From positions 1 to 57,055 of the IMG/VR virus record IMGVR_UViG_3300049216_000159: 57,055 bases of DNA; one strand, given 5' to 3'. Within the stretch, counting starts at the first letter, position 1. The number at the start of each line of letters is the position of its first letter. Below are positions 19,813-55,267 of the stretch, in pieces. The DNA comes from a virus. Under the pieces are notes generated by a model. The model was given only the letters and a program-made list of their open reading frames with translations, had not been told where the DNA came from and made no database searches. Position numbers and translations under genes: made by a program.

Positions 19813-19989
19813 CTAAGGCTTTTCGATTCCGTGTAGGATCTTAAAGAGACGTGCCATCGGCTCCGGAATCGGCTTCTTGCTGGCTTCCCAACGCTGCCAA
19901 GTGCGCGCGCTGACGGAAATCGACGCCGCCGCGGCGGTCGGTGTCAGTTTCAGCTTCTCTCGGAGTTTCTTGAGTTCTGTGCCAGTCAT
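19813..19989 (-). CDS. Tiny XRE-type regulator of the inverted cassette
   Basis: A 58-residue helix-turn-helix protein: TELKKLREKLKLTPTAAAAS, then ISVSARTWQRWEAS and PIPEPMARLFKIL, a NadS/XRE-like single domain. A near-consensus leftward promoter (TTGACC at 20022-20027, TATACA at 19999-20004, 17-bp spacing) would start transcription about three bases before the ATG, so the mRNA is probably leaderless. An ATAC-C-GTAT inverted repeat overlaps the -10 and may be its own operator. Likely regulates the cassette upstream of it. Confidence 0.75.
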   Translation of the reverse strand: MTGTELKKLREKLKLTPTAAAASISVSARTWQRWEASKKPIPEPMARLFKILHGIEKP

Positions 19990-19998
19990 CGGAGGGCA

Positions 19999-20027
19999 TG
20001 TATACCGTATGGAATCCTGGCGGTCAA
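19999..20027 (-). promoter_or_regulatory. Near-consensus leftward promoter for the XRE gene
   Basis: TTGACC and TATACA are separated by 17 bp, leading to an ATG about ten bases beyond the -10. A 9-bp inverted repeat (20002-20010) lies over the -10, suited to autoregulation. Confidence 0.7.
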
Positions 20028-20040
20028 ATTGACGGCCATC

Positions 20041-20134
20041 CTGTGCTGTGCTGTGCTGCGCTTTGCCTGGCCAGGCTGCGCTTTGCTTTGCTGCGCGGCG
20101 CTTCGCTTCGCTTTGCGTTGATGAGCGATGCTAG
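20041..20134 (-). repeat. AGC-rich pentamer tract 3
   Basis: Read leftward, about 18 consecutive 5-base units fit NNGCN (CAGCA, AAGCG, AAGCA, TGGCC, AGGCA), ending in three CAGCA copies and CAGGA. T is rare on this strand. It lies between the ParB-like gene and the XRE gene. Similar tracts precede the other two cassette genes. Confidence 0.8.
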
Positions 20135-20142
20135 GAAAAATA

Positions 20143-20808
20143 TCAAGCCGCTTTTGTTCTGCAAACCGACTGAAGCAGCCGCTCAAGTTTCTCAAGCGTC
20201 TGCATCAGTTCAACGTTCGATAGGTCAAGAAGGTCATTCTCGATCAGAGTAATGATCTGGTTGGCATAAAACATCTGATTCATGCCGCTCAATTTGTCAT
20301 TGGCGGCGGACTGATTGCTGGTGAGTTCCTTGCCGGCCATGTGTCGGATCGTCTGTTTGAGGGCGATGGGGCGACCGGAGATGGTTCCGATGCGACTGGA
20401 GCGTAGTTCGCCCATGCGCTCCGATGTCAGATTCAGCGCTTGCGAGACGGCGACAGCATCGATGGCCAGCTTTTCGGCCAGCAGCAGGCAATGCGCCTTG
20501 TCGTGCTGCGATAGGGCGCGGCCATGTGAGGCGTTGTAGCGCATGGCGTCTAGGAATAGGTCGGCGTCCGTCTTGTACGTTTTTTCGATGCATTCGACCT
20601 CGTAGTCCTCGCCGTAGATGCGAATGAGAGCTTTGCTTCGATGGAACCCGTCTGCAACACGCTTGGATGATTTGTCGATCACAAGCGGAGGCATGGAAGA
20701 ACCAGCACGGATCGCCGACTCGATCTCGCCGACGTGATGGGAATCGATGCTGCCGCGCGGGAAAAGAGTGAAGTCGAAAACGAGAGCAGAAAGGGGATGC
20801 TTTTTCAC
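20143..20808 (-). CDS. ParB/Srx-like nuclease-fold protein of the inverted cassette
   Basis: A 221-residue protein starting GTG six bases after an AGGAG site that is the tail of pentamer tract 2. Residues 1-90 carry the ParB N-terminal pattern: a hydrophobic opening, HHVGEIESAIRAG, PLVIDKSSKRVADGFHRSKAL and a Tyr-Glu-Val-Glu strand. A helix-turn-helix follows (DAVAVSQALNLTSERMGEL, about 120-140). The C-terminal 50 residues are helical and end with Lys/Ala. It resembles small phage ParB-like DNA-binding proteins, unrelated in sequence to the ParB gene at 47500 apart from the fold. Partner and target unknown. Confidence 0.75.
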   Translation of the reverse strand: MKKHPLSALVFDFTLFPRGSIDSHHVGEIESAIRAGSSMPPLVIDKSSKRVADGFHRSKALIRIYGEDYEVECIEKTYKTDADLFLDAMRYNASHGRALSQHDKAHCLLLAEKLAIDAVAVSQALNLTSERMGELRSSRIGTISGRPIALKQTIRHMAGKELTSNQSAANDKLSGMNQMFYANQIITLIENDLLDLSNVELMQTLEKLERLLQSVCRTKAA

Positions 20809-20819
20809 TGGTAACTCCT

Positions 20820-20880
20820 GTGCTGTGCTGTGCTGTGCTGCGCGCCGCGACGCTGAGCTAGGCCCTGCTTGGGGATGCCG
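20820..20880 (-). repeat. AGC-rich pentamer tract 2, merging into a ribosome site
   Basis: Read leftward, units of five bases (AAGCA, TAGCT, CAGCG, TCGCG, then four CAGCA) run directly into CAGGAG, the Shine-Dalgarno of the ParB-like gene. About 12 units; T-poor. Confidence 0.8.
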
Positions 20881-20888
20881 TGGATAGA

Positions 20889-21194
20889 CTATTTCATTTC
20901 GACGCTATCTTCAGCGGTGAACAGCGTCGCCTGAAACATTTTTCGTGGTCCCGTTTTTGTTCCAGCAAACTTTTGGCCGCTGCATCCGTCGAGCAGCGAT
21001 GTGCGAAGCGCGCCAGAGGGGATGTAGAGCGTTCCGTCGGGCTCGCGGTAGGTGAGTGCCTCGGCGATCCTTTCGATATCGCCTTTGTTAGGCGTTGTAC
21101 CCAATTTTAGTTGCGGCAATTTTCCGTTCACGCTCTCGATGTTGCACATCAGAAGCGGAGTAAGACCTGTGAATTTAAACACTCGTATTTCCAC
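20889..21194 (-). CDS. Short phage protein, possible truncated member of a larger family
   Basis: A protein of 101 residues if the GTG at 21194 is the start. That GTG lies six bases after AAGGAG, whereas the ATG at 21200 touches it. It begins EIRVFKFTGLTPLLMCN and has GTLYIPSGALRTSLLDGCSG in the middle, a pattern I associate with roughly 200-residue phage proteins (a TPLLMHN start, then an IPADAFRASLL-like helix). Here it stops soon after LFTAEDSVEM, so it may be a shortened version. First gene of the inverted cassette. Confidence 0.6.
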   Translation of the reverse strand: MEIRVFKFTGLTPLLMCNIESVNGKLPQLKLGTTPNKGDIERIAEALTYREPDGTLYIPSGALRTSLLDGCSGQKFAGTKTGPRKMFQATLFTAEDSVEMK

Positions 21195-21234
21195 TGACAT
21201 CTCCTTGCCGCGACACAATGCCGCGACTTCAAAA

Positions 21235-21329
21235 CTGTGCGTTGCTGTGCTAGGCGCGGCTGTGCCACGCGAGGCCTCGCTAAGCTGTGCCACGCTGTGC
21301 TTTGCTGCGCTTGGCATTGCCACGCTGGG
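21235..21329 (-). repeat. AGC-rich pentamer tract 1 (5' leader)
   Basis: Eighteen consecutive 5-base units with GC at positions 3-4 (CAGCG, TGGCA, ATGCC, AAGCG, CAGCA and so on), read leftward. The promoter just upstream predicts a start at about 21329, exactly where the tract begins, so the tract is the 5' leader of the cassette mRNA. Confidence 0.8.
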
Positions 21330-21335
21330 AAGAGG

Positions 21336-21364
21336 ATAGTATGGTGCGTCAATATGGCTGTCAA
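21336..21364 (-). promoter_or_regulatory. Strong leftward promoter of the inverted cassette
   Basis: TTGACA (21359-21364) and TACTAT (21336-21341) are separated by 17 bp. Near-consensus and independent of the late rightward transcription, so the cassette can be expressed on its own, possibly in the lysogen. Confidence 0.8.
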
Positions 21365-28367: not shown

Positions 28368-29623
28368 GCAATAACGTCTATCCCGGCAGTCTGCCCGGCC
28401 TTACCTACGACAGCATCCGCTCGCCGAACTTCAATACCGGAGTCCAGCAGGCGATGTCCGGCAAAGAGTCACGCATCGCCTATCAGGCGTATTGCCTGAT
28501 GTCCTGGGAGCTCACGTATGAGGTGCTCCGCGACAATCTGACCATCAGCGAACTGAAATCGCTGTTTGGCTTGATGATGAACGCGGCGGGCAAATACGAC
28601 AGTTTTCTGTACCTCGATCCGCAGTTCAATTCGGTCACGCATATGCCGTTTGCCGTGACGGACGGATCGACGACCGCTTTTCAACTGACCGCAACCTATG
28701 AAAATTCAGCCGGTCCCGGCGGCGCCGAGCTGATCCAGAACTGCAATCCCTACACGATGGAGATCATGCGTTACGGAACGCTGATCGAATACGTATCCGG
28801 GATTTCGCGCACCCAGTACGCGCTGCACAGTCAAGACTTCACGAATGCCAGTTGGACCAAATCCAACGTAACAGCCGCCGTTGCCGCGCAGGCAGCGCCC
28901 GACGGGACACTGACCGCCAACGCCATCGACGACTCGACGAGCTCATCCGTCACGCACGAGATTTCCCAGACGGTCGCCAGTGCTACGGCGGCGGGAACCT
29001 ATACCTGGTCGGTGTTTTCCGACGCGGCGCCCTGCGAAGCGAACTACATCTCGATGGGGATTCAGGATGTCACGTCGGGATCCGTCGTGCTGGTCGTTTT
29101 CAACCGCACGAATGGCGTCTACGTCAGTAGTTCCACCTCGGGAACCGTTTTCTCCGGGCTGACCTATTCAACGGAAGCCGCCGGCGGGAACTGGTCGCGT
29201 TTTTCCGTCACGGTTACCACGACGGGCGGCGCCGGCGGTTTGATCGCGTTCTTGGTGCCGCAGCAGGTGGCAGGAACCAACGCCTATGCAGGTACCAACG
29301 GCACCGCGGCCATGGTGATCTGGGGCGCGCAACTGGAAAATGCCGCCATCGTGTCCCCGCTGGGAAGCATCGGAACCACGTTTCCGACGATGTACTTGCC
29401 AACCACGACGGCCGCCATCACGCAGCAAGATTGGACCGGCATCGGCGCGACCGGAATCATGAACTTCAACACGGCGAACCTCGCATCCATCGCCGGGATT
29501 CAACTGCTCTGGTCGGGGACGTTTTTCTACCGTGTGCGGTTCGATGATGACGCGATCGAGTTCAAACAGATCATGAATCAGTTGTGGTCTGTCGAGATCA
29601 AACTTCGCCAGGTCAAGTTGTAG
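28364..29623 (+). CDS. Distal tail protein (DUF2460-like) with inserted carbohydrate-binding-like domain
   Basis: A 419-residue protein. The N-terminal (residues 1-140: LPGLTYDSIRSPNFNTG, ELKSLFGLMMNAAGKYDSFLYLDP) and C-terminal (about 365-419: FNTANLASIAGIQLLWSGTFFYRVRFDDD) parts are one DUF2460 domain. Between them (about 145-345) is a sandwich with DFTNASWTKSNVTAAV, APDGTLTANAI, GTYTWSVFSDA and WGAQLENA, the pattern of a fibre carbohydrate-binding module. It forms the tail tip ring; the insert would face outward and bind the cell surface. Confidence 0.8.
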   Translation: MSNNVYPGSLPGLTYDSIRSPNFNTGVQQAMSGKESRIAYQAYCLMSWELTYEVLRDNLTISELKSLFGLMMNAAGKYDSFLYLDPQFNSVTHMPFAVTDGSTTAFQLTATYENSAGPGGAELIQNCNPYTMEIMRYGTLIEYVSGISRTQYALHSQDFTNASWTKSNVTAAVAAQAAPDGTLTANAIDDSTSSSVTHEISQTVASATAAGTYTWSVFSDAAPCEANYISMGIQDVTSGSVVLVVFNRTNGVYVSSSTSGTVFSGLTYSTEAAGGNWSRFSVTVTTTGGAGGLIAFLVPQQVAGTNAYAGTNGTAAMVIWGAQLENAAIVSPLGSIGTTFPTMYLPTTTAAITQQDWTGIGATGIMNFNTANLASIAGIQLLWSGTFFYRVRFDDDAIEFKQIMNQLWSVEIKLRQVKL

Positions 29624-47503: not shown

Positions 47504-49116
47504 TTCTTGGACTTGGCTTTCTTTGCGACTTTCGCCGGTGCAGTGACCTTCGGCACATCCGCCTTGACCTTCTTGACGTCGACGCCGAGCGTTTTCGCAG
47601 CCTTGGTCAGCTGCGCGACCTCCGCATCCAGATCAGACGGCAAATCCTCGATCAGCTCCAGTTCGAATATCAGCTGACGCAGCTGGCTGTCGGTAAGCTT
47701 CGGGACCTTATCGAAACTGTCGGCGTCCCAACCCCAGGCCGTGAAGAACCCCTGCGGCACGTTGTAGGCATTGTCGATCTGACGCTCGACGAGTTTCAGG
47801 AGCGTCGCGCGCTCGATCTGCGTCGGCGCATTCTTGTGGATCGCGATCAGCAGCCGGTCGCGAAAAGCGGTCTGCTCGGCCTCCTTCGCGGGATCAACCT
47901 TCTTTCTCGGCAACGCGCTGCCGTAGGGTGAACTGCCCTTGGCGTGTTCCTCAAGCGTGCCGAGCTTCCGTGCGGCTTTTACGGCCTCGTCCATCTTGAC
48001 GACTTCGACAATCTCGCCGGTCTTCGGCATCTGCAGGAGTTGGATGACGTCGGACTTCTTGCCGAGCAGCTGCTTGAACGTGCGACCCTTGGCGTCTTGG
48101 GTGCAGAACCGATCCAGCGTCGCGAAACCATTGGTTACCCAGCCGCCGGGCGCTACCTTCTTAGCCTCTGGTCCCACGATCACCGCGCGGCCGGATTGTT
48201 TGGCCTCGGCGATCTGCAGCTTTGACCAGACTTCGCGCTTGAGTTTGAAGCAGGCGGGATCTGTGCAGACGTCTCCACTTTTGATGTCGGCGAACAATTC
48301 AGGATGATTCCCGGTGCGTTTCGGGCAGGGACCGCAGGCGCCGGCCTTCGGCAGCAGATCGGCATCACCCGTCGGAAAGCTCGCATCAGCCAGGCGCAGC
48401 ATGTACTCGCGCTCGATGAAGTCGCGCGCTTGGCGATACGACATCGGCTCACCGTCATACCCCTGCGTGATTTTGCCGGCCGCCTCGCGCTGGCTGGCCG
48501 GATCCGCCATGCGAGACAGCAGCAACGCCGTGGAGGCGGTGAGCTTGCCGCGATAGAACATTTCGCGCGCCGCGGGTCCGAGCGCCGAGAGTTTCATCCG
48601 GCCGTAGACGTAGGATTTGGACTTGCCGACCTTGTCCGCAATTTCCTCGGCGGTATGCCCGAGCCGCTGCAGCTGCTCGTACCCTTCAGCCTCCGCCAGC
48701 TCGTGCAGGCCTTCGCGCTGCAGGTTCTCGACCAGCTGGATCTCCAGGACCTGCTCGTCGGTCAGCTCGCGCACGTCCACCGCGATCGCCTCGAGGCCTG
48801 CGGACTTCGCCGCCATGAAGCGCCGCTCGCCGGCGACGATCTCGAATGTATTCTTCGCGGCCTCCTTGGCCTCATCAGGCGAGAAGTAAGTCTTGCCGCC
48901 AACACGAATGCCATTCAACCCTGGGGTGCTTACCATCGGCACGTTGCGCGCAATGATCGGCGACAGCAGCCCCAGCGTCTTGATGCTCTCGCCGAGTTCC
49001 TTGATGGCCGCTTTGTCGAAATGGGCCCGGCGCTCGGCCTGGGAGCCGGTTTGCGAAAGCGTAAGGGCGTCGAGCGGAATATGCCGCACGCTGCCGAGTT
49101 CGACGTTGACACTCAT
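47500..49116 (-). CDS. Large ParB/KorB-like protein of the DGR operon
   Basis: A 538-residue protein starting in an ATGA overlap with the reverse transcriptase stop. Residues 1-110 are a ParBc domain (HIPLDALTLSQTG, GLLSPIIARNV, IVAGERRFMAAKSAGLEAI). Residues about 125-215 form a helix-turn-helix block (LQREGLHELAEAEGYEQL, AEEIADKVGKSKSYVYGRMKL). A four-Cys motif (ACGPCPKRTG ... CTDPACFKLK) lies near 275-305, and the end is Lys-rich. Long phage ParB-like proteins of this type are regulators or plasmid-like partition proteins; translational coupling to the RT is notable. Confidence 0.85.
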   Translation of the reverse strand: MSVNVELGSVRHIPLDALTLSQTGSQAERRAHFDKAAIKELGESIKTLGLLSPIIARNVPMVSTPGLNGIRVGGKTYFSPDEAKEAAKNTFEIVAGERRFMAAKSAGLEAIAVDVRELTDEQVLEIQLVENLQREGLHELAEAEGYEQLQRLGHTAEEIADKVGKSKSYVYGRMKLSALGPAAREMFYRGKLTASTALLLSRMADPASQREAAGKITQGYDGEPMSYRQARDFIEREYMLRLADASFPTGDADLLPKAGACGPCPKRTGNHPELFADIKSGDVCTDPACFKLKREVWSKLQIAEAKQSGRAVIVGPEAKKVAPGGWVTNGFATLDRFCTQDAKGRTFKQLLGKKSDVIQLLQMPKTGEIVEVVKMDEAVKAARKLGTLEEHAKGSSPYGSALPRKKVDPAKEAEQTAFRDRLLIAIHKNAPTQIERATLLKLVERQIDNAYNVPQGFFTAWGWDADSFDKVPKLTDSQLRQLIFELELIEDLPSDLDAEVAQLTKAAKTLGVDVKKVKADVPKVTAPAKVAKKAKSKK

Positions 49117-50381
49117 GGGTTCCCCTTTCGTAAGAATTGCCGCAGCCACGGAAATTCGAGGCCGATCCGCCTTCGGACTTTCCAGGTGCTGGCGTGACTG
49201 AAATGACCGGCGTAGCTTGCGATGACCGATCGCAGCTTCTCTTGCGCCGCCGGCCGCGATTGATTGCGCATCGGCCAGGTTCGAAGCTTCTGGCGCAGAT
49301 GTCCGATGACGCGCCGGCGCACCACTCGATGGCTTGGGTAAATGACGTAGCCCAAGAAATCGCAGCCAGCGGATAGCGGCTTGAGCTTGACGTCAGCTTT
49401 GAGCTCTAGCCGCAGGCGAGATCGCAGGAATTGCGTGATCCCCGTGTGCCAGGCCTGCAGCTGCTCCCGGTCCCGATGGACCATCACAAGGTCATCGACG
49501 TACCGAAGGTACCGCTGCGCTTTCAGCTCATGCTTGACGAATTGATCCAGCGCATCGAGGTAGACGTTGGCAAAGAACTGACTGGACAGGTTGCCGATCG
49601 CCAGCCCGCATCCCGGTGCCGCATTCTCCAGGCGTTTGTGCGCAGGAACCTTGGCGCGCTCGGCCTCTGTCCCGATAAACGTGACGCCGCCGGCGACCGG
49701 TGACTGCTTGAGCAGCGCGTGCGTTGCGCGGCGCGCCTCGATCGGCAGGCCTTGTATCCGCGCCTTGAGCATCGCATACAGCGTCGGCCGATGAATGGAG
49801 TTGAAGAAATTGCGGATGTCCAGCTGCAGGTACCAGCCGCCGCCTTGGCCGGAGTGCACCTGGCGCATGAAGTCGGTCAGGCGGTCAACGGCGGCGTGAG
49901 TGCCTTTGCCTTGGCGGTTTGAGTAGCTGTCGAAAATGAACTTGGGCTCGTAGATCGCCTCGAGCTGCGGCACCAGCCAGTGATGCACGACGCGATCGCG
50001 AAACGGGGGCGCGTGGATTTCGCGCGCTTTTGGCGCCGTCGCGATGAAGCAGGTCGGCTTGCCCGGAGTCCAGCTGCCTGCCACGAGATCCCGCTGCAGC
50101 TCGATCAGCCCATCGATCCAGTAGGCATCGAAGCTCAGCTGATCAGGGCTCGGTTTCTTGCCGCGGCGGGCCCGCGCCCAAGCAGAGTGGAGGCTTCGGA
50201 AAGAAACCGCGTCGCGACACTCACCGGCGCGAACCGCGCGAACGTGGTTGTGATTCGTCTGGTTGTTCCTGTTGACGTTGCCATTGTGCAGGTTGACGTT
50301 CCACGCGTAGTCCGAGGGAAACGCTAACTCAGGCACTTTCGACCCTGATGCACATCCGTGTGGGTAGCGCATCCTCGTCAT
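49113..50381 (-). CDS. Diversity-generating retroelement reverse transcriptase, with TR in its 5' coding region
   Basis: A 422-residue RT: motif A LQLDIRNFF (Asp 188), the DGR-typical IGNLSSQ (262-268), YVDD (294-297) and CDFLGYVI (340-347). ATG 50381 overlaps the Avd stop (ATGA). Residues 22-53 are encoded by the 96-bp TR itself. No ATG, GTG or TTG occurs in frame between the TR and the RT domain, so translation must pass through the TR, giving an N-terminal tail that mirrors the variable lectin end. It copies TR RNA with adenine errors; cDNA replaces the variable repeats. Confidence 0.95.
   Translation of the reverse strand: MTRMRYPHGCASGSKVPELAFPSDYAWNVNLHNGNVNRNNQTNHNHVRAVRAGECRDAVSFRSLHSAWARARRGKKPSPDQLSFDAYWIDGLIELQRDLVAGSWTPGKPTCFIATAPKAREIHAPPFRDRVVHHWLVPQLEAIYEPKFIFDSYSNRQGKGTHAAVDRLTDFMRQVHSGQGGGWYLQLDIRNFFNSIHRPTLYAMLKARIQGLPIEARRATHALLKQSPVAGGVTFIGTEAERAKVPAHKRLENAAPGCGLAIGNLSSQFFANVYLDALDQFVKHELKAQRYLRYVDDLVMVHRDREQLQAWHTGITQFLRSRLRLELKADVKLKPLSAGCDFLGYVIYPSHRVVRRRVIGHLRQKLRTWPMRNQSRPAAQEKLRSVIASYAGHFSHASTWKVRRRIGLEFPWLRQFLRKGNP
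50223..50318 (-). repeat. DGR template repeat (TR), 96 bp
   Basis: Sense orientation contains 26 adenines, mostly in nine AAC/AAT codons plus CAC, TAC, ACG, AGG. It aligns base by base with VR1 (50834-50929) and VR2 (51431-51526). The 3' 22 bases (GTTCGCGCGGTTCGCGCCGG) contain no adenine and are the GC-rich initiation segment; right after it TR reads GTGAG where both VRs read GTCAG. The whole repeat is in frame with the RT, codons 22-53. Confidence 0.97.
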
Positions 50382-54717: not shown

Positions 54718-55267
54718 TGTCTCGCTTAGTGTCATTGGGTTGCTGAAGTTTCTTGGCGCGCTTGTTCACTGCGGGTTACTGCAGTCCAACGGCACGCTAA
54801 GTGTTTTTGGGCTTCTGTGGTTCTCTGGCACGCTTCGCGTTGATTGGGTTACTGGTATCTCATGGCACGCTAGGCATTGATGGGCTTCTGACGCGAGATG
54901 GCTCGCTTGATCATACTGGGTTACTGCAATCGACTGGCCCGCTCGATGATCTTGGGTTGCTTGAACCGCATGGCTCGCTGACACTGCGTGGGTTGCTTTA
55001 GACTGCTGGCTCGCTGAGATTACGTGGGTTACTACTGACTTCCGGCTCGCTCGTATACCTTGGGTTGCTTCTCCATCGTGGCTCGCTAAATGCGAGTGGG
55101 TTGCTGTGCTTTCTTGGCTCGCTTCACCAGAATGGGTTGCTGGAACGCCGTGGCGCGCTTCTAGATACTGGGTTGCTGTACACGGTAGGCTCGCTGTGTG
55201 CCCCTGGGTTGCTCGGTAAGGATGGCTCGCTGAGAGGCGTTGGATTGCTACTTCATGCTGACTCGCT
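54718..55267 (-). repeat. Regular 9-base repeat / 9-base spacer array
   Basis: Read leftward, 31 nine-base units alternate between AGCGAGCCA-like and AGCAACCCA-like forms, separated by spacers of exactly nine bases (one of ten); every spacer is different. Conserved units are strict at the A/B alternation and lack T; variants such as AGCGTGCCA, AGTAACCCA, AGAAGCCCA concentrate near the gene end. The period of 18 does not match helical phasing. The array is not CRISPR-like. It occupies most of the 54716-55307 gap, immediately 5' of the transposase-domain gene. Confidence 0.95.

Follow-up and report, generated by a model that had tools for sequence, protein, structure and literature searches.

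A phage cassette with three pentamer tracts as a probable VIPR locus with intact-looking guides and a halved Vipr gene

What is the role of three long tracts of consecutive five-base units, each built on the pattern NNGCN and each lying ahead of a gene in an inverted cassette of a phage genome? The DNA in question is IMG/VR virus record IMGVR_UViG_3300049216_000159, positions 1 to 57,055 (hereafter the window; all coordinates refer to its whole length of 57,055 nt), and the cassette, read on the minus strand, lies at 19.8-21.4 kb. An earlier note on this DNA regarded the tracts as designed unstructured leaders or as ladders for protein binding. It is argued here that the cassette is very probably a locus of the Viral Interference Programmable Repeat (VIPR) system, that its tracts are guide-RNA genes which look intact, and that its Vipr gene has been halved and most likely disabled recently.

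VIPR is a phage-carried relative of CRISPR and so far the subject of a single preprint, whose experiments focus on two clades (PMC13142463). Vipr is a phage-borne RAMP protein, and the guide RNAs (vrRNA) are made of GGY/NN pentamers. Pairing with DNA is confined to the NN, two guide bases in five, and one target base, usually the wobble base, is skipped. The G-loop is the RNA-binding loop of Vipr, and vrRNA is expressed, measures about 100 nt and has a structured 3' tail. Silencing of DNA by the Vipr-vrRNA complex has been published for the SUSP1 and P. fulva systems only. The VIPR criteria comprise vrRNA of 9-16 tandem pentamers with GGY/NN or "a related consensus", and a minimal locus consists of vipr and one vap gene (for a VIPR accessory protein) flanked by long non-coding guide regions (PMC13142463). 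The vap genes published so far are vap1-6.

In a scan of the window for dinucleotides recurring every five nucleotides, GC formed exact runs of 18 units (tract 1, 21239-21328), 10 units (tract 2, 20822-20871) and 15 units (tract 3, 20045-20119), and no other period-5 dinucleotide run exceeded five units; by this measure the tracts are far beyond chance, and the AGC-rich pentamers described earlier are real. The 12-18 units then ascribed to each tract hold for tracts 1 and 3, the latter reaching about 18 if one break (CATCA) is allowed, and tract 2 is slightly short with 11 imperfect units. Most units differ from one another: two letters are fixed and those beside them vary. CACAG closes all three tracts, and tracts 2 and 3 share the constant end CAGCACAGCACAG with a repeated CAGCA. 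By a count made by eye, 28 of the 43 units have A as their first motif base, and the others have G, C or T. Tract 2 directly abuts the AGGAG of gene 2, as had been noticed, and tract 3 leads into AGGATGG, a 21-bp palindrome and then gene 3. Transcription from the promoter of Table 1 is predicted to start about 6-7 nt downstream, at the first base of tract 1, in agreement with the earlier proposal, and TTGACA stands at the equivalent place in the relative L125. Runs of 18, 10 and 15 units of [A/N]GC plus NN (the family columns being NGGCN) occur together with gene 1 and the candidate vap, gene 2, as in a minimal locus.

The association of such tracts with Vipr was evidenced by two independent selections. 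When IMG/VR was scanned by the DNA pattern (GCNNN)x10 alone, which is the search for runs of at least ten units that had been suggested for phage genomes, 120 stretches were obtained, and a Vipr homolog was present in 78 of them with a profile grown from gene 1 and in 89 with a full-length profile, the tracts lying mostly within about 1 kb of it. Oriented by the Vipr gene, 2,885 units gave the columns N-G-G-C-N (GGC/NN). Among 76 relatives picked by gene 2 alone, both tract and Vipr were found in 43 and neither in 24, and only nine were discordant. In Escherichia phage SUSP1 (KT454805) the Vipr hidden Markov model matches exactly one open reading frame (28477-29079, minus strand, E 2.6e-48), which is flanked by period-5 tracts; this match is consistent with the published VIPR locus (PMC13142463). 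A direct search with gene 1 alone returned no relatives, tract-selected loci being needed to find the family; PHROGs gave no match for gene 1 of the window, and the Vipr family is not represented in Pfam or PADLOC.

The variable bases carry a signal of their own. If the one-nucleotide skip falls on the wobble base, NN should correspond to codon positions 1-2, and in a mixture model of the NN of 363 tracts this register received a weight of 0.42 in sense and 0.19 in antisense, the rest being background, with zero weight for registers 2-3 and 3-1 and about 0.01 in letter shuffles. The three tracts of the window alone fit codon positions 1-2 (P 0.0008), as do tract 1 (P 0.036) and tract 3 (P 0.004) taken singly. 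When coding DNA is sampled at period 5, a wrong register receives weight as well, hence the signal of the tracts is unlike that of plain coding DNA. Decoded in this manner, tract 1 reads V[KN][HQ]A[KN]TVT[FL][DE]LVTRLT[KN]T. The codon-phase signal supports the published wobble-skip code without knowledge of the targets.

Gene 1 matches positions 2-109 of 192 in the Vipr profile, and neither another Vipr nor a separate C-terminal half was found in the window or the record. The closest relative found, L125, which is 68% identical where the two proteins overlap, has the same gene order (Vipr, tracts, gene 2, tract, gene 3) with a full-length Vipr, whose approximately 95 further residues include the G-loop GAGAWRP. 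For the Vipr of another relative, L118, the AlphaFold model reached a pLDDT of 94.4, and the top matches listed for it were Cas7/Csm3-type CRISPR subunits (best VIA-align Z 11.9, root-mean-square deviation 4.2, 156 residues aligned), so that a Cas7/Csm3-like RAMP fold is predicted for the family. Structure prediction of the half-protein of the window lacks the central strands.

According to the proposed mechanism, the cassette would be a VIPR locus on the minus strand inside the region of phage structural genes, and each tract would be the DNA of one vrRNA. Of every five bases, three ([A/N]GC) would form the scaffold held by one Vipr RAMP subunit and the remaining two would pair with target DNA, one target base, usually the codon wobble, being skipped. 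Gene 1 would be the remnant of Vipr; gene 2 would encode a DNA-binding accessory protein of the ParB-like kind, and gene 3 would probably control the operon. Where relatives have kept Vipr intact, its complex with vrRNA may bind and silence genes of rival phages or prophages; RNA-guided DNA binding, the one-nucleotide skip and silencing have been published for SUSP1 and would apply to the window by analogy. In the window phage, where Vipr is without its C-terminal half including the G-loop, the locus would most likely have been disabled recently with the guides left intact. The idea of a protein-binding ladder thus came close, as the VIPR RAMP is thought to oligomerise along pentamer-repeat RNA, although the RAMP gene and the guide bases had gone unrecognised.

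Several observations weigh against a recently disabled VIPR locus. The motif of the window is AGC-rich and not GGY, and a structured 3' tail like that of SUSP1 is not evident, the constant CAGCACAG end standing alone. Targets of tracts 1 and 3 were not found in IMG/VR or GTDB genomes by exact one-nucleotide-skip patterns: those of tract 1 had 0, 2 and 33 matches in IMG/VR and 0 in GTDB genomes, those of tract 3 had 36 and 10 viral and 3 genomic matches, and the best match comprised at most 27 of 36 NN letters, about as expected from chance plus the seed. A local all-against-all comparison of 377 guides with skips of 0-3 yielded nothing convincing, and its skip-3 matches are interpreted as further copies of tracts left unmasked. 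Moreover, constraint still seems to act on the N-terminal Vipr half, which is 68-72% identical to L125 and shows no excess of change versus L127; this means that the inactivation was recent, or that the half has some use, or that the assembly is in error. An error of assembly or sequencing, by which about 300 bp between mid-Vipr and tract 2 were lost from a locus fully functional in nature, would agree with the full length of all Viprs in loci picked by gene 2, with an N-terminal half as conserved as in intact relatives and with the difficulty of assembling repeats, but the tract is preceded by the stop codon and some 18 nt that are unique, and no simple repeat collapse is visible; we regard such an error as improbable. 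Still less probable is a guide-only strategy, in which a Vipr from a co-infecting phage or from a prophage in the same cell would take up the guides or would work together with the N-terminal half. It is true that the tracts are long and undegraded despite the broken Vipr, and that, of 15 tested records with tracts but without a Vipr close by, 14 are devoid of Vipr throughout; however, many of these records are fragments, a trans-acting Vipr is not known, and the half alone is predicted to be devoid of the central strands. The window copy is probably disabled, a loss of function which we infer from its truncation, except if some 300 bp went missing in assembly or the copy is served in trans by another Vipr.

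The two remaining explanations dispense with guides altogether. Translational leaders or spacers, which would keep the mRNA open ahead of every ribosome-binding site, would suit the occurrence of a tract before each gene and of a promoter at the start of tract 1, but they are very unlikely given that the tracts fold no less strongly than shuffled sequences (folding-energy z -1.3, +1.2, +0.4), on which ground the unstructured-leader idea was rejected, that NN carry the codon-phase signal, and that tracts are associated with RAMP genes across genomes. The position before each gene, correctly observed in the window, appears incidental because relatives carry tracts upstream or downstream and in multi-tract arrays. 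Ordinary microsatellite expansion through slippage, already doubted in the earlier note, can be practically dismissed: some pattern matches in IMG/VR are indeed simple repeats (e.g. L047, L086, L092), yet the non-identity of most units around two fixed letters and the strong tie of the tracts to one gene family speak against it.

The reading of the cassette as a VIPR locus leads to the question of its unusual motif. Across 81 Viprs and 177 alignment columns, residue X of the G-loop (G-x-G-X-x-R) was compared with the first base of the guide motif, and its column was the best predictor of that base: D or E goes with G in 55 of 58 cases, A with a relaxed base in five of five, and R mostly with C. 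A change to A accompanied by loosening of base 1 occurred at least twice on the tree. With labels evolved on the tree, P was 0.0016 when only the X column was considered and 0.07 when the best among all columns was taken, so that this new covariation is suggestive. The X column was chosen with the data already in view, though the G-loop is the published RNA-binding loop. Exceptions are L009, L024 and L109 (acidic, relaxed), L011 and L084 (R with G) and a Thr clade which keeps G. Whether X reads motif base 1, with D/E selecting G, R tending to C and Ala leaving it relaxed and A-rich, so that systems form insulated dialects of which the window represents the Ala dialect, is in our opinion evenly balanced. 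As a separate observation, the Vipr clade of L038, L015, L081, L114 and L067 carries R in its G-loop, and its guides are CGC/NN rather than GGC/NN.

Table 1. Features of the cassette, in window coordinates
Feature	Position	Strand	Remarks
Sigma-70-like promoter TTGACA-17-TACTAT	21336..21364	-	10/12 matches; predicted start coincides with the first base of tract 1
vrRNA-like guide tract 1	21235..21329	-	18 NNGCN units, motif RGC/AGC, variable NN; 1-nt-skip decoding GTnAAnCAnGCnAAnACnGTnACnTTnGAnCTnGTnACnCGnCTnACnAAnAC
Gene 1, truncated Vipr (RAMP)	20889..21200	-	N-terminal 103 aa, ends at TAG, without C-terminal half and G-loop
vrRNA-like guide tract 2	20818..20871	-	10-11 units, constant CAGCACAGCACAG end, runs into AGGAG of gene 2
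Gene 2, ParB-like (DGFHR), candidate VIPR accessory protein (Vap)	20143..20808	-	221 aa; phrog_1033, E 5.9e-9
vrRNA-like guide tract 3	20041..20134	-	15 exact units, about 18 if one break is allowed; CAGCACAGCACAG as constant end
Near-perfect 21-bp palindrome TGGCCGTCAATTTGACCGCCA	20018..20038		ahead of gene 3; candidate operator, from sequence and inference
Gene 3, Aca2/YdiL-like helix-turn-helix regulator (anti-CRISPR-associated regulator family)	19813..19989	-	58 aa; Pfam PF08965, E 2.7e-8

The ParB-like protein of gene 2 had no match in 50,697 GenBank phage records; gene 3, a relative of which is present in the syntenic locus L125, is probably the operon regulator. Outside the cassette the window contains 36-nt tandem repeats (54953-55051, about 2.2 copies in two overlapping registers) and a reverse transcriptase (49113-50381, minus strand, phrog_1423, E 1.6e-101), which may belong to a diversity-generating retroelement or a retron. 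Rfam at gathering thresholds gave no match in the window and four relatives, hence no hammerhead ribozyme was seen. Among the other records, L022, L051, L054, L065, L103, L117 and L119 have GGC/NN-like or GCC tracts and no Vipr anywhere in the record, possibly as orphan guides or guides of another Vipr type, and L195 (1644-3484) has seven or more guides in an array, a ATCGCCCAACAGAAGGAAACA-like linker recurring between them, possibly as a processing unit.

The window would add to VIPR an uncultivated clade whose guide motif, AGC/NN, is relaxed and whose accessory gene is of the ParB-like kind, and the codon-phase statistic backs the wobble-skip reading with no need of a target database. Good guides beside half a Vipr in one locus raise the question of whether guides are shared between phages. 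The covariation offers a single-residue hypothesis for the recognition of a guide scaffold by RAMP proteins, which bears on the origin of CRISPR effectors, and if X does read base 1, VIPR systems would be divided into mutually insulated guide dialects.

It remains to compare the locus with known systems. The Vipr family shares its predicted fold and a G-loop with the RAMP subunits Cas7/Csm3 known from class 1 CRISPR-Cas (types III and VII), whereas sequence identity is about 10% and, unlike in class 1 systems, the guide is variable at only two of five positions; when tandem repeats were scanned for and the cassette genes were compared with known families, neither a CRISPR array (identical repeats, unique spacers) nor cas genes were found at the locus. 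From the type II VIPR of SUSP1 the window differs in AGC/NN with a relaxed first base versus GGY/NN, in its ParB-like accessory gene, in having no evident structured tail and in its truncated Vipr. Both are nevertheless phage-borne, with homologous Vipr RAMP proteins, pentamer tracts upstream and downstream, and a small adjacent accessory gene.
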